Shown: positions 251 through 31,043 of the stretch, piece by piece | How positions within the stretch are numbered: position 1 is the first letter of the stretch | How the letters are laid out: each line of letters begins with the position of its first letter | From: Dehalococcoidia bacterium | Lineage (GTDB): Bacteria > Chloroflexota > Dehalococcoidia > Dehalococcoidales > Fen-1064 | Assembly (NCBI GenBank): GCA_011170375.1 | Contig: DUEV01000006.1 | Span: 1 to 64,000 of the forward strand | Length of the DNA: 64,000 bases | Direction of reading: 5' to 3' | Made by a program: the position numbers and the translations under genes | The notes under the pieces: model-generated | Database searches by the model: none | What the model saw: only the letters and a program-made list of their open reading frames with translations | What the model was told of the DNA's origin: nothing

Positions 251-670
251 ATAATTCGAACCTCCGATAGACAGATAGGGCAAAATGGTTAAGGTATTGG
301 ATTATTAGAGAATTGAAGTATAAGTTGTAGCAGATCATATGTCAAAGGCAATAAATATAGCAGTTCTTCCAGTGAGTACACATCGGGATGTTTGTCCAGC
401 AATGCGTACGATTGTCTAATACCGTTTACGTTTTCGATGAAGCGGGAGAACGCGACTACCTGTGATGTAGGATAAGTTAATTAAAGTGAGGTTGACAAAG
501 GATAGGTCAGCAATGTAGTATGCGGCTGGATTTATATCCTGAGTAGGCATCTTTACACTTAGCTTAGGGGGGCTTTGAAGCAATGCCTGTATTTGGCCAC
601 TTGGGTAGTGCCTAGCCAATAGTGAAACCGACCTTGAATGGTCGGTTTCATGCTGTTAAGGGAGGTTATT
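251..670. other. Intergenic region with palindrome copy and leader hairpin
   Basis: No convincing gene; the short minus-strand reading frame at 416-619 has no ribosome-binding site or recognisable sequence. It holds copy 1 of the palindrome AAACATCGGGATGTTT (core 380-393, first bases diverged), followed by about 45 bp that resemble the sequence after copy 2 at 4570. At 624-649 lies a perfect 10-bp inverted repeat, GAAACCGACC/GGTCGGTTTC with loop TTGAAT, immediately before the ribosome-binding site of the next gene. It lacks a T-run, so it may be a leader structure rather than a terminator. Confidence 0.6.
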
Positions 671-3600
671 ATGAATATGAAAAGGATACTTGCCATAGTA
701 TTAGCAGTAATACTGACTGTCGTTGGGCTGACTAGTGCTATCTACGCCCAACCACAACCCGAAAATGCTGTAGGTCTTTCATTTGGGACCCACGCTATTT
801 ACTTTGCCCCCGGTAATACCTTCAGCAACCAGGAAGTCCCCGGTCAGCGTCATTGGACCACCGAATTAACTAATGGACTCAGTGACCCCGGAAGTGTTAT
901 CCCGAATGCTACGGTTGGACTTAGTTCCGGATTAGAGTTCGATTTCATCCAAGAGGAGAACTTGGAAATCGAAGGGCCGCCATTATATCAATGGTCTTAT
1001 ACTGAAATAACACCCGGAGGGCATGCTAAAGCCGAAGCAAGTTTCAAGGGTTCTGATCATGCCCCTTTATATTTTAAGCCTGGATTCGATGTATCTCGTA
1101 CCTTCGAACCGACCAGATTCGACGGGTCTGACACCCGGCCCCTTGTTATAGTGGTAACGCCGCAGGACGAAGGACTTCCAGAGTTTGGAATCGAGATTAG
1201 AATACCGCAGGACAATCCAGAGCTTGCATTTATAGAAAGTTGGGACGGACCACCGAGTGAATATCACCTCTCTCCGGACGGGCAGATGCTCAGTATTCGG
1301 GAACTCGATCCGCAATCCAGCGAAACCTTTGTCTACAACATAGCAATCACTGTAAATCCAGACCCTTATCCAGTGGAAATACTTCCTAGCGTAAGTGTCC
1401 AGACCCGAATCGGCCCTGGCAGTAACTACGACCCGGTTGAACCTAATAGCTCATATGTAAAAGACATAACTGATATGTGTGACACGTGCACATGGACATG
1501 GAATTTCTGGGATACAAATCCAGAAGATCCAGAAGACCCCGTCCCCGTGGAATACCCTATCAGCATCCATGAAGGGGTAAGTGGCGTTATACGCTTTGAG
1601 GGGTATTTTGTAGAACTGAGTAATAATGAGGTTGGTGTAGATTTCGGTACTATGTGGAGTCTCCATGTACCAGGTAATGAATTTACAGACGATACTGTAA
1701 TTGGGCGTGAGTGGTGGTCGTCGAACGTGTATAATATGCCGGATTGGACTGGAGAGCTCATTGATGAGTTATTAGTCGACGCAAACAGCCAAGTGGCATT
1801 CAACCGATTTGATCCATACCCGGACGTTATAGAACCGCCGGATTTTGGCTGGTACTTCGGGGACATACCGCAAGACGGTGGAATTTATGTAAGCGTGGAT
1901 AAACAACAGCCTAACATACCCGTTGATTATACACCAGGATTTGACGTTTCCCGTGAAGTGAGTCCGGCCGCGTTCTACGGACCGGGACCTCATACCCAGA
2001 CAGTAGAAATAACAATAATACCCAGACAGCCAGATTACGACCGGACGAATCTGTGGGTAGATATTCACGCAGAAGAGACTTATTTAGTAAATCCGGTAAT
2101 CCAGATGCCCGATCCCGAACAAGGTATAGAGATGAATCTCACAGAGGACGGGCATCACCTAAGTATCAACCCCCAGAGTCTCCCCCCAATTGATACACAA
2201 TGGGATATTGAAGTCACTATCGATGTAGAATTGCAACCCGGTGTACCTGGTGCTCAGTTCGCCCCCGGTGTCTCCGTGCTAACAGGTGAGGAAATATTGG
2301 GCCACAATGGGTTTGCCACCGGTAATCAGGTTTCCTACTCTCCGGACGGGATGGGCACATGGACACTAAGAGCTCAAGGTGATTATATCTGGAACTGGCA
2401 TGCAGGACGAGTACGAATTGTCGATCTCGCAATGATATCTGAGGAAATTGAAGCAAACGATGTCTTCATGTCTTTCCACACCATGTATTCCTATATTTCC
2501 CCAGACGACGAGTTTGTCAACAATGGAGTACTCGGTCAACGTCAATGGGGCACAGTCTTATCTAATCAACTAAATGACCCTCAAAGCGTTATTGAATGGG
2601 CAACGGTCAGCCTTGAGACCGGGATAGATTTTGGAAATATCAATACAGATAATCTGGATCCTATGTATAACGGTCCACCGCTTTACAGGTGGTCTTATAG
2701 CGGAATAGAACCGGGAATGAATGCACCGACATTCGTAAGTCATGAGCCTAATGATCCCTCACCGGTACCATTCGAGCCTGGTTTCAATGCATCGCGTACA
2801 GTCGATGTAACCAGATTCGATGAACCCGGGTGGCAGACCCTTGTGATAAAGGTTAAATCACAGGATGTACTCAATCCATGGTTTGCCATCAATGTTGGAA
2901 TACCGGAGAACATCTCGATTAGTGCGTCTATTGACTCTTGTTACGGGGCAACCGACTATCACATCAGCCCAGACGGACAAACACTAGGTATCTGGCAAGC
3001 TATGCCAAACCCGGCAGTAGAATATACATATACAGTACTTATCTGGGTGGAACCTGGGGAGGGTCATCCGGTGGAGATTCGGCCGTTTGTGGAAGTACAG
3101 CGTGAACTGAGCAATACTATCGAGTTTTTTGGTACATGCGATACATATTCAAATGGGGAGGCGATCGTTGAACCAGGTAAGTGGACGTGGGACATGTCAG
3201 GGGAATATCCTGTAGCCGTCGGTGAACAGGTATCCTGTAGCATACGCTGGGAACCACAATTCGAAGAGCTGATAAACGATGTTACTGTGCTCTTCCAGAA
3301 ATTCTTGACATATATACCATCTGGGAACGAATTCATAAACAATGGTGACGTACCTGGTGATATTTCTTATGCCACCCAAATAATCAATGCGCCTGATAAC
3401 ACAGGAGAGCCAGTATCTAATGCAATGATTGAGCTTGTTCCAAACGAGGCTTTCGACTATACTAAACCACCGGTACCAGGCCCTCCCTACCAGTGGCCCT
3501 TAGGATCTATTATAAATGGAGACATACGGCAGGTTTCCGTACTTAACTCTGAAGACTCCATGCCTTTCGATCCGGGTTTCAATGCTTCCTGTTCAGCTGA

Positions 3601-4480
3601 CCAGACTGTGTTTTCGCAGCCGGATATCCAGACTCTGACTATCACTGTCACTCCTCAAGAAGAGTATGTGGATATGCTGATAATCGACATTTTTGCCGGT
3701 GGCGACGACAACGTTATCCCGAAAATCCTGTCTGTCGATGGCGCGGATGATGTAATCATAGCTCAGGGCGGGCATCGTTCAATGATAGTGAAGTTGACCC
3801 CTGCCTTGGAGGAGTATACAGTTACGGCTACCATCAAGGTTATTCCTAATATGCCGCAGATTAAGTATAGGCCTACTGTCAGGATTTATGATCCAGGTTT
3901 AGACCCTAGTTCTTTTGGTGTAGGATACCAAGACTCGATTATTTACTATATGCCTGAGGTGGGTACATGGACTTGGAGCGCCGACGGACTCTATCAGTGG
4001 ACATGGCTGGAAGGTAACGCCAGAGCTGTACTCTTCCCTAGAGACTCCGCAGCTCTTATTACGGAGTTCAGTATTAGTCAAATGTCGGTCGATTTTGATG
4101 CTACGCAACCTGATGGTGACCGAATAGCCATAAGTGAAGCTTTCATTACCCTCGGCGAGGTAGCCGCCTACGACCTCTCGACAGATGATGTCATAATAAG
4201 TGTGGACGGGGTAGAAATCATTATTCCTGCCGGAGGTTTCACCCAGCAGGGAAACAAGGAAAAGTACACCTATTCGTCTCTCTCGGGTGACGAACCACCA
4301 GAGGTAACTATGAAAATCGACCTTGAATCAGGTGAGTGGAGTCTCAAAATAAGTGATATCGACGCCAGTGTGATTGACAATAGTGATGGTGTCGAAATTA
4401 CTCTCGCTATTGGAGAACTGTGTGCCGTAGAAGTAATCAACATGCATGTTGGTGGACTTACGTTTATCGCCGACCAGTAG
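671..4480 (+). CDS. Giant secreted protein with four ~280-residue repeats
   Basis: About 1269 residues from the ATG at 671, which follows GGGAGG at 659-664; an upstream in-frame ATG at 638 falls inside a hairpin loop and has no such site. The N-terminus (MKRILAIVLAVILTVVGL...YA) is a signal peptide. Four diverged tandem units follow, starting near nt 770, 1630, 2460 and 3280. Each begins with VxxxF.T.....PG(N/D).F.(N/D) and a tryptophan-rich segment, and contains PF(D/E)PGF(N/D)xSR and a WTW(D/N/S) strand. The last ~130 residues form a separate domain. No transmembrane anchor, sortase motif or catalytic signature is visible. It probably acts outside the cell as a structural or binding protein; the function is not recognised. 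Confidence 0.85.
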   Translation: MNMKRILAIVLAVILTVVGLTSAIYAQPQPENAVGLSFGTHAIYFAPGNTFSNQEVPGQRHWTTELTNGLSDPGSVIPNATVGLSSGLEFDFIQEENLEIEGPPLYQWSYTEITPGGHAKAEASFKGSDHAPLYFKPGFDVSRTFEPTRFDGSDTRPLVIVVTPQDEGLPEFGIEIRIPQDNPELAFIESWDGPPSEYHLSPDGQMLSIRELDPQSSETFVYNIAITVNPDPYPVEILPSVSVQTRIGPGSNYDPVEPNSSYVKDITDMCDTCTWTWNFWDTNPEDPEDPVPVEYPISIHEGVSGVIRFEGYFVELSNNEVGVDFGTMWSLHVPGNEFTDDTVIGREWWSSNVYNMPDWTGELIDELLVDANSQVAFNRFDPYPDVIEPPDFGWYFGDIPQDGGIYVSVDKQQPNIPVDYTPGFDVSREVSPAAFYGPGPHTQTVEITIIPRQPDYDRTNLWVDIHAEETYLVNPVIQMPDPEQGIEMNLTEDGHHLSINPQSLPPIDTQWDIEVTIDVELQPGVPGAQFAPGVSVLTGEEILGHNGFATGNQVSYSPDGMGTWTLRAQGDYIWNWHAGRVRIVDLAMISEEIEANDVFMSFHTMYSYISPDDEFVNNGVLGQRQWGTVLSNQLNDPQSVIEWATVSLETGIDFGNINTDNLDPMYNGPPLYRWSYSGIEPGMNAPTFVSHEPNDPSPVPFEPGFNASRTVDVTRFDEPGWQTLVIKVKSQDVLNPWFAINVGIPENISISASIDSCYGATDYHISPDGQTLGIWQAMPNPAVEYTYTVLIWVEPGEGHPVEIRPFVEVQRELSNTIEFFGTCDTYSNGEAIVEPGKWTWDMSGEYPVAVGEQVSCSIRWEPQFEELINDVTVLFQKFLTYIPSGNEFINNGDVPGDISYATQIINAPDNTGEPVSNAMIELVPNEAFDYTKPPVPGPPYQWPLGSIINGDIRQVSVLNSEDSMPFDPGFNASCSADQTVFSQPDIQTLTITVTPQEEYVDMLIIDIFAGGDDNVIPKILSVDGADDVIIAQGGHRSMIVKLTPALEEYTVTATIKVIPNMPQIKYRPTVRIYDPGLDPSSFGVGYQDSIIYYMPEVGTWTWSADGLYQWTWLEGNARAVLFPRDSAALITEFSISQMSVDFDATQPDGDRIAISEAFITLGEVAAYDLSTDDVIISVDGVEIIIPAGGFTQQGNKEKYTYSSLSGDEPPEVTMKIDLESGEWSLKISDIDASVIDNSDGVEITLAIGELCAVEVINMHVGGLTFIADQ

Positions 4481-7744: not shown

Positions 7745-7984
7745 ATGGCAGAAAAGAACGTGGTGATTTACAGCACCCCCACCTGACCCTATTGCCACCG
7801 GGCGAAAGAGTATCTTTCGCAGAAAGGTATTGCCTACACCGACTATGACCTCTCCAAGGACCGTGACAAGATCGAGGAGATGGTCGAGAAGTCCGGTCAG
7901 ATGGGTGTCCCCGTAATAATCATTGATAACAACGTTGTAATAGGGTTCAACCAGGGCAAAATAGACGAACTACTGGCCAGCTAA
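7745..7984 (+). CDS. Selenocysteine-containing glutaredoxin (UGA at 7784-7786)
   Basis: Read with UGA as selenocysteine (U), this is a 79-residue protein: MAEKNVVIYSTPT-U-PYC-HRAKEYLSQ, continuing to a normal TAA. It has the complete glutaredoxin fold signature: beta-strand VVIYSTPT, active site UPYC where relatives have CPYC, the cis-proline motif GVPVIIIDN and the GFNQGKIDELL C-terminal helix. The UGA sits exactly on the nucleophilic cysteine. Upstream are GGAGGTGAGG (7728-7737) and a TTGACA/TAATAT promoter. A hairpin beginning 15 nt after the UGA (7802-7820) fits a SECIS element. Both sides of the UGA are in one frame with full conservation, which argues against a pseudogene. trxB follows 33 bp later, suggesting that Trx reductase supplies its electrons. 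Selenocysteine machinery is not in this window, so decoding is inferred. Confidence 0.9.
7802..7820 (+). promoter_or_regulatory. Bacterial SECIS hairpin of the glutaredoxin gene
   Basis: GCGAAAG (7802-7808), loop AGTAT (7809-7813), CTTTCGC (7814-7820): seven perfect base pairs. The apical loop starts 23 nt after the UGA and has G as its second base, matching the known bacterial pattern of a hairpin close behind the UGA with a G among the first two loop bases. The same geometry recurs at 30284-30302. Confidence 0.8.
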
Positions 7985-29633: not shown

Positions 29634-30167
29634 ATGGAGACTCAGCAGATAATTCTGCTCATTATCAATATCATAGGAGGCATTGCTGTAATTGGTAGCT
29701 ATATCTTTGGAATCAAGGCACAATCAGGTGGGGCTAATGCTCTCTGGGGTGGAGTTCCACCGAATATTAGACCGGTATACGGTGTTTCAATGGTCCTGTC
29801 AGCTCTTGGATACTTCGCTTTTCTCTATTTTATCCTATTCGAAATCATACCTGACGAAGTATTGATTGGTGGACGATTTGATTTCAGTGTTTTTTACTTG
29901 ATATTCATCTTCATTCTCTTACCCTCATCATTGTGGATGCCACTTACCAATGTGTATATCGGTAATCAAATCACGAGTATCAAGATCGGAGTTCGTGCTG
30001 TCCTGGCACTGGTAGGACTGGCTTCAATAGCTCTTGTTTGGGCGATTCTCAGTCTGGAAACAACTACTCAAAACGTTCCCTACTGGCTTGCGGTTGCCGG
30101 TAGTAGTTACTTCGCATTCCATACCGCTATTTTGGATGGCGTGATATGGTCAGTATTGTTTAAATAG
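29634..30167 (+). CDS. Integral membrane protein, unknown
   Basis: 177 residues with GAGGAGG before the ATG and five predicted hydrophobic helices (TQQIILLIINIIGGIAVIG..., YFAFLYFILF, FYLIFIFILLPSSL, AVLALVGLASIALVWAI, YWLAVAGSSYFAF). No recognised family; it follows the steroid-type cluster and precedes the Sec-Spx gene. It may be part of either group. Confidence 0.7.
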   Translation: METQQIILLIINIIGGIAVIGSYIFGIKAQSGGANALWGGVPPNIRPVYGVSMVLSALGYFAFLYFILFEIIPDEVLIGGRFDFSVFYLIFIFILLPSSLWMPLTNVYIGNQITSIKIGVRAVLALVGLASIALVWAILSLETTTQNVPYWLAVAGSSYFAFHTAILDGVIWSVLFK

Positions 30168-30235
30168 GCTTAACCAAATAACTAGTAGTAAATCGTGAAT
30201 CGAAAATGTATAGATAGGAAAATTAGGAGATAGCT

Positions 30236-30580
30236 ATGAAAGTCGATTTTTATTGCTGGGCGAAGTGAAATACCTGTCGTAAGGCGAGGGAGTTTCTTTC
30301 GCAAAAGAATGTGGAAATAAACGAGCGTGATTTCTTCAAGAATCCCTTTAACCAATCTGAGATAGAGGAGCTGATTCAGGGAAAACCAGCTTCGGAGATG
30401 TTCAATTTCAGGAGTCCCAGCTTCAAGCAACTCGGCCTAGAACGCGACAAGCTGAACGACAAAGAGCTTATCGACCTTATGCTGAAAGAGCCAAGACTTG
30501 TCCGCAGGCCTGTAGTACGCATCAATGACAAAGTGTATTTCAGCGCTGACAGGTCAGTCCTGGAGGGTCTTGTCAATTAA
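30236..30580 (+). CDS. Selenocysteine-containing Spx/ArsC-family protein (UGA at 30266-30268)
   Basis: Read with UGA as selenocysteine: MKVDFYCWAK-U-NTC-RKAREFLSQ and on to TAA at 30578-30580, 114 residues. The fold signature fits Spx/ArsC/YffB proteins: short strand, UxxCRKAREFL active site where relatives have CxxC or a single catalytic Cys, a glutaredoxin-like middle, and RLVRRPVVRI with the RP motif that orients substrate in ArsC. The UGA is on the catalytic-cysteine position. GGAG (30225-30228) precedes the ATG. A hairpin 15 nt behind the UGA (30284-30302) copies the glutaredoxin SECIS geometry. The next gene, staygreen, starts one base after its stop, showing the frame is really translated. 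Likely role: thiol or selenol redox chemistry, perhaps reduction of arsenate or a peroxide; not established. Confidence 0.9.
30284..30302 (+). promoter_or_regulatory. Bacterial SECIS hairpin of the Spx/ArsC gene
   Basis: GCGAGGG (30284-30290), loop AGTTT (30291-30295), CTTTCGC (30296-30302): seven pairs including two G-U wobbles. Stem length, loop length, distance from the UGA and loop start AGT are the same as in the glutaredoxin gene, although the proteins belong to different families. Confidence 0.8.
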
Positions 30581-30581
30581 T

Positions 30582-31043
30582 ATGAAGCGCCTTAATCCGG
30601 ACAAACTTCATGTAACCTATCTAGCCGGCGCTACTCCGGACGAACTGATCGTACCAAGACGTTATACGCTGACTCACTCTGATATTACCGGAACCCTTTT
30701 TCTCTCCATCGGTAGTGAGTATGATACACGAAAGACTTCTAAATTCTATACAAGATTGATGAGGGATGAAGTACTGGCAGAATTAATAGACGAGGGAGAA
30801 GATCTCATCTTTAGGGTATACTGTCACGTTAGTGGAGGCTTTGTTTTCGGTAGGGCTAAGTGGCGGTACAATATTTTTAAATCTGAATTACCACTAGTCC
30901 TGGAAGCTATTAGGTTCGGTGACAAAAATCTAATTGAGAAGATCCCAACGATTGATAATTCCAAAGTATTTGTGCATTTTCAATCTACCGATAACCGGTT
31001 TAACAAGGTCGAGGAGTGGGGCTTTATCGCAGATTACAAATGA
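30582..31043 (+). CDS. Staygreen-family protein
   Basis: 153 residues from the ATG at 30582, preceded by GGAGGG (30562-30567); an upstream extension to 30525 overlaps the Sec-Spx gene. The family signature is clear: VPRRYTLTHSDITGTLFLSIG near the start, MRDEVLAELIDEG, VSGG and the FKSELPLVLEAIRFGD segment, ending VEEWGFIADYK. Plant staygreen removes Mg from chlorophyll a; bacterial homologues, including Chloroflexota ones, are reported to have Mg-dechelating activity although the hosts lack chlorophyll. Here it sits in an oxidative-repair operon, so its physiological substrate may be a tetrapyrrole-related stress compound. Inference. Confidence 0.9.
   Translation: MKRLNPDKLHVTYLAGATPDELIVPRRYTLTHSDITGTLFLSIGSEYDTRKTSKFYTRLMRDEVLAELIDEGEDLIFRVYCHVSGGFVFGRAKWRYNIFKSELPLVLEAIRFGDKNLIEKIPTIDNSKVFVHFQSTDNRFNKVEEWGFIADYK

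Follow-up and report, generated by a model that had tools for sequence, protein, structure and literature searches.

Two hairpins downstream of in-frame UGA codons in a 64,000-nucleotide stretch of a Dehalococcoidia bacterium genome (contig DUEV01000006.1 of assembly GCA_011170375.1; this stretch is the window throughout) are almost certainly bacterial SECIS elements (bSECIS) that would direct selenocysteine (Sec) insertion via SelB. One lies in a glutaredoxin-like (Grx) gene and the other in an ArsC/Spx-like gene (Table 1). By its sequence features the hairpin is a conventional bacterial SECIS, unusual mainly in that it recurs nearly identically across related genes in at least eight phyla.

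Table 1. Coordinates of the two predicted selenoprotein genes, their in-frame UGA codons and their putative SECIS hairpins
Feature	Positions in the window	Strand	Remarks
Glutaredoxin-like selenoprotein (YruB / Uxx-star type), 79 aa, MAEKNVVIYSTPTUPYCHRAKEYLSQ...	7745..7984	+	TIGR02196, NF041212, PF00462
In-frame UGA (predicted Sec) of the Grx gene	7784..7786	+	homologues have UGA or Cys in this column
Putative bSECIS hairpin of the Grx gene, GCGAAAG AGUAU CUUUCGC	7802..7820	+	stem starts 15 nt after the UGA (read from the DNA as GCGAAAG AGTAT CTTTCGC); loop starts 22 nt past UGA
ArsC/Spx-like selenoprotein (thioredoxin fold), 114 aa, MKVDFYCWAKUNTCRKAREFLSQ...	30236..30580	+	PF03960, TIGR01617
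In-frame UGA (predicted Sec) of the ArsC-like gene	30266..30268	+	UGA at the same position in homologues
Putative bSECIS hairpin of the ArsC-like gene, GCGAGGG AGUUU CUUUCGC	30284..30302	+	stem starts 15 nt after the UGA (read from the DNA as GCGAGGG AGTTT CTTTCGC); loop starts 22 nt past UGA

The protein encoded at 7745 carries the motif UPYC and scores above the cut-offs of TIGR02196 (5.3e-29) and of NF041212 Uxx_star (1.4e-20; 73.3 bits against a cut-off of 66), with a further match to PF00462 (4.8e-21). The protein encoded at 30236, with the motif UNTC, matches PF03960 (2.7e-16) and the Spx/MgsR/ArsC-related family TIGR01617 (9.7e-22; 77.4 bits against a cut-off of 75.05), and it also matches the Glutaredoxin family PF00462 (1.8e-5). 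A reading of the window made from sequence only, which had drawn attention to the two hairpins, called their genes unrelated; this is not supported, because both proteins have the thioredoxin fold, in which their Sec and helix alpha-1 occupy homologous positions. Among 60 relatives, each ArsC-like homologue has exactly one TGA inside the match, at the position of the window codon.

The genome holds a second ArsC-like gene, a paralogue on contig C12, and the surrounding cassette is duplicated (window 29634-31043 and L058, G000:C12:212497-213913). It comprises a ~177-aa protein without a Pfam match, the ArsC-like selenoprotein and a protein with a Staygreen domain (PF12638, 4.3e-48 in the window copy), and a functional link between the selenoprotein and the Staygreen homologue is possible. 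Elsewhere in the window, a Cyclic di-GMP-II riboswitch (559-642, 57.7 bits) lies where a 1280-aa ORF (638-4480) begins.

The geometry that the sequence-only reading gave for both genes (15 nt from UGA to stem, seven pairs, a 5-nt loop and the same 3' arm CTTTCGC) was exact, as were its coordinates; the ArsC-like stem includes two G-U pairs. The minimum-energy fold of each 23-mer also closes the loop with an A-U pair, so that the stem has 8 bp and the loop 3 nt (GUA in Grx, GUU in the ArsC-like gene), with energies of −10.0 (Grx) and −9.3 (ArsC-like) kcal/mol that none of 200 dinucleotide shuffles equalled. Conditional on the encoded amino acids and on local codon usage, the probability of seven pairs in exactly this geometry is 0.0036 and 0.0024, respectively. 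The bSECIS model (bSECISearch, summarised in PMC13188914) describes an apical loop of 3-9 nt, a stem of 4-16 bp, a UGA-to-loop distance of 16-37 nt, a G as first or second loop base, mostly with G or U after it, and an energy of at most −7.5 kcal/mol. Both hairpins agree with it in size (loop of 5 or 3 nt, stem of 7 or 8 bp), in distance (22 nt for the 5-nt loop, 23 nt for the 3-nt loop), in the loop G (AGUAU, AGUUU) and in energy. A search of Rfam gave no match at either hairpin.

The genome (2.28 Mb, 17 contigs) also carries the Sec machinery: selD, selA, selB and tRNA-Sec (72.9 bits, anticodon UCA) lie together on contig C8. The product of selB has the SelB-specific winged-helix domain, while selD and selA, which adjoin it, were named from sequence and not by a family scan; selD has an in-frame UGA of its own and is itself a selenoprotein gene. 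With agreement on all four points of sequence and structure and with selA, selB, selD and tRNA-Sec present, the identification of the hairpins as SECIS elements held up. In-frame stops by themselves would suggest something else, namely that UGA is an ordinary stop codon and the genes are pseudogenes, or that UGA has been reassigned. We regard either as exceedingly improbable: the frames go on with conserved sequence, the UGA is conserved across relatives and tRNA-Sec and selABD are present, and reassignment is rejected because UGA is the stop codon of 10 of the 28 long ORFs in the window.

Compensatory changes in the stem, which the sequence-only reading had proposed as a check, are present. 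Across a set of 64 distinct Sec sequences, pairing holds in 97.1% of cells, a percentage inflated because the set was picked for at least six pairs, and double changes occur at four of the seven pairs (C-G to U-A or A-U; G-C to A-U or U-A; A-U to C-G; A-U to G-C). Double-change cells number 31 against 6.8 in shuffles, and none of 500 shuffles reached the observed value, a count that ignores kinship among the sequences and so overstates significance. All slid structures were worse than the observed register. The picture is the same, though weaker, in 27 sequences not picked for pairing (two pairs with double changes), and a tree-based independent-pairs test, with too few supported branches, gave two supported pairs only. 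Some compensations come with a change of residue: in L006 and L007, GCG/TCG has become GCA/TTG, which keeps the pair and turns Ser into Leu, and in the nine sequences of the L247 group (seven Grx, two ArsC) the 3' arm has slid by one base (GCGAAGG AGTT CCTTCGC or similar), and Arg stands in place of the Ser found in most Sec copies.

An intragenic recoding signal can be told apart from protein constraint when Sec and Cys homologues serve as a natural control. The homologues we compared came first from the 60 relatives and later from as many as 400 genomes in the phylum. The hairpin is present in all 53 Sec Grx sequences; by a loose criterion, at least six pairs in either register, it is found in 53/53 Sec and 14/54 non-Sec Grx. 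The loop G at position 2, whose invariance had been proposed as a further check, is near-invariant in Sec Grx (52/53, the exception being L052) compared with 19/54 in non-Sec Grx, and Cys homologues mostly lack both hairpin and loop G. When codons were recoded synonymously according to local usage, the median P was 0.004 for Sec Grx and 0.25 for non-Sec Grx, and P fell below 0.01 in 44/53 Sec against 1/54 non-Sec sequences (L055, a Sec to Ser replacement; Mann-Whitney P = 4e-17, which overstates significance because the sequences are kin). Sec copies use a nearly fixed codon for Ala/Val, for Glu and for Leu, and Cys copies show no such restriction; Glu is encoded by GAG in 43/43 Sec against 5/11 non-Sec sequences and Leu by CTT in 50/53 against 11/54.

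These comparisons bear on whether the likeness reflects protein constraint only, the hairpin being a by-product of the codons of an AKE[FY]LSQ-like helix. Similar residues in the two proteins, and the K-x-[FY]-L pattern common to thioredoxin-fold homologues, speak for that view. As the whole explanation we give it hardly any credence: the hairpin is gone from Cys homologues with nearly the same residues (L034, GCCAAGG AGTAC CTTACTG; L043, GCCAAGG AATAC CTGGCAG), the GAG and CTT preference belongs to Sec and not to non-Sec copies, and compensatory changes were made even at amino-acid cost in L006/L007 and the L247 group. Pure protein constraint is rejected by the synonymous-recoding test and the Cys homologues; judged by these alignments, what is conserved is the RNA, not only the protein.

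Cys homologues with the same hairpin had been named beforehand as evidence against RNA conservation. Non-Sec copies that keep it do exist, but they are few, the clearest being L021, L025 and L055. L025 (genome G005) and L021 (genome G009) are Cys Grx genes in which the hairpin is fading; their genomes yielded no true SelD match, and the fading is apparently decay after loss of the Sec trait. L055 (G016:C185:1592-1813), a Grx gene that has Ser (TCA) in place of Sec and the perfect hairpin GTGAAAG AGTAT CTTTCAC, is either a relict SECIS after recent single-base loss of Sec or a MAG/assembly error.

The hairpin is a very specific motif for finding selenoproteins. Searched without any UGA requirement, the pattern turned up 15 times across 400 genomes from the phylum (0 for a reversed control pattern). 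Each of the 15 matches belongs to a Grx or ArsC-like gene and is preceded by an in-frame UGA at a distance of exactly 15 nt, whereas a crude scan with generic bSECIS rules gave 21 candidates in the window alone. A covariance model built from 27 Sec sequences recovered both sites in the window, at 57.8 and 48.5 bits and with few false matches, as the sequence-only reading had anticipated (next best in the window, 10.2 bits), and one further site only in the genome, the ArsC paralogue; since all three are in the training set, their recovery is by construction and the absence of others is the informative part.

Scanning one genome per species across 84,980 species for UGA plus hairpin gave at least 120 stretches, against a chance expectation that we take, from our own base counting, to be about one. 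The 80 stretches examined among the matches listed are all open selenoprotein frames, Grx-like or ArsC-like, from at least eight phyla. Ten representatives match glutaredoxin, Uxx-star or ArsC-related families, several of them under curated cut-offs. One match on a viral contig lies in a closed frame and was dismissed as chance, and a plasmid search returned only matches below 60% identity. L153, L165, L170 and others from Betaproteobacteria are selenoproteins of ~240 aa (FTQPGUSSCLRAKEFLSR...) whose N-terminal domain is Grx-like; L153, the one tested, is below all NCBIfam cut-offs, and these proteins are perhaps an unnamed family.

We consider it reasonably probable that these elements form one stereotyped bSECIS class, G[CU][GA]A[AG][AG]GAGU[AU]UCUUU[CU][GA]C, placed exactly 15 nt past UGA, restricted to selenoproteins of the thioredoxin fold from at least eight phyla, predicting Sec nearly perfectly and imposing [AV]KE[FY]LS on helix alpha-1, an RNA need that dictates protein sequence, through either repeated convergence or very old retention. 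A bSECIS so stereotyped in sequence, imprinting these residues on thioredoxin-fold selenoproteins of so many phyla, seems mildly new; a search of the open-access literature, with most subscription papers outside its scope, found no paper on it.

How the likeness between the Grx and ArsC-like hairpins arose is a question of origin and not of SECIS function. Descent, from an ancestral Sec thioredoxin-fold gene or by later transfer with one SECIS kept, is about as probable as convergence, perhaps slightly less so. Both genes are of the thioredoxin fold with UxxC at a homologous place, the same hairpin occurs in Grx-like and ArsC-like genes that together span at least eight phyla, and in a genus-mate (G001) the two genes (L003, L018) carry one and the same 19-mer, all of which would fit descent. 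Against this, the two hairpins differ within the window genome, and another Sec ArsC clade (L284, L289, L291, L355 and relatives, family f63) uses a different hairpin, AAGGCC CGTGC GGCCTT, with the loop 18 nt from UGA, so the position of the SECIS moves within the family.

The sequence-only reading had also suggested that the hairpin may be the organism's SelB recognition element. We compiled the genome's UGA genes by homology searches, and the list may be incomplete. SelD has the element ATAGGTC CGGGA GACCTAT, its loop 16 nt from UGA and its inner stem conserved in relatives. Three formate dehydrogenase (FDH) alpha genes (G000:C1:8197-8922, C15:84634-85365 and C6:43276-45270) have UGA at the usual place and, in that order, the loops GGTCT, AGTTT and GGTCT, 18 nt from UGA; a TGA-bearing FDH fragment (G000:C14:110459), in which no in-frame TGA is followed by the FDH Sec motif, was left out of the count.

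The selenoprotein genes of the genome thus do not all share one stem and spacing. The SelB suggestion survives as regards a SECIS with a common loop G2 and fails for the stem and the 22-nt spacing, because SelD and the three FDHs use other stems and spacings, and a genome-wide shared stem is rejected on the same grounds. In all seven elements of the genome the loop is small and its second base is G, with U as the next base in most cases; the SelD loop region is also under protein constraint (GPGDL), so its G alone proves little. The stem is family-specific and the spacing variable, which leaves the loop as the candidate shared determinant. SECIS elements of one genome that have the loop in common, and not stem or spacing, are a guide to what the SelB of a lineage reads.

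From the hairpins, their Sec-tied conservation and covariation and the Sec machinery, we infer SelB binding and Sec insertion. With the ribosome at UGA, the C-terminal winged-helix part of SelB would bind the hairpin through the exposed loop G, and the U after it, and because SelB carries Sec-tRNA-Sec, it would deliver Sec in place of a release-factor stop. One short sequence may both encode [AV]KE[FY]LS and form the hairpin required at that site, and the two elements would be alike because both occupy the equivalent site in the thioredoxin fold (beta-1, UxxC, helix alpha-1). Selection on the RNA would then fix codons and part of the amino-acid sequence.

Compared with known Uxx-star/YruB glutaredoxin-like selenoproteins (NF041212, TIGR02196), the Grx gene, above both cut-offs, shows no evident difference. 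The loop here presumably lies ~4 nt farther from UGA than in the E. coli fdhF SECIS, whose bulged U17 has no counterpart in the stems here and whose stem sequence also differs. The apical-loop sites of that element, G23 and U24, correspond in kind to the loop G and U of our hairpins (PMC8659212). With known ArsC/Spx-like selenoproteins (NF041106; Sargasso Sea arsenate reductases, PMC1088965), the ArsC-like protein has in common the ArsC family and Sec in a UxxC/UxxS redox motif; it scores 35.2 bits against NF041106 ArsC_rel_Se_1, under the cut-off of 85, its family being TIGR01617, and it has UxxC where the Sargasso Sea set has UxxS (PMC1088965). The loops AGUAU and AGUUU fit exactly the published bSECIS loop pattern N1-G-[G/U]-N-N2, with N1 pairing N2 (PMC13188914). 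The hairpins conform to the bSECIS consensus and differ in that a near-identical sequence recurs in two thioredoxin-fold families across at least eight phyla.
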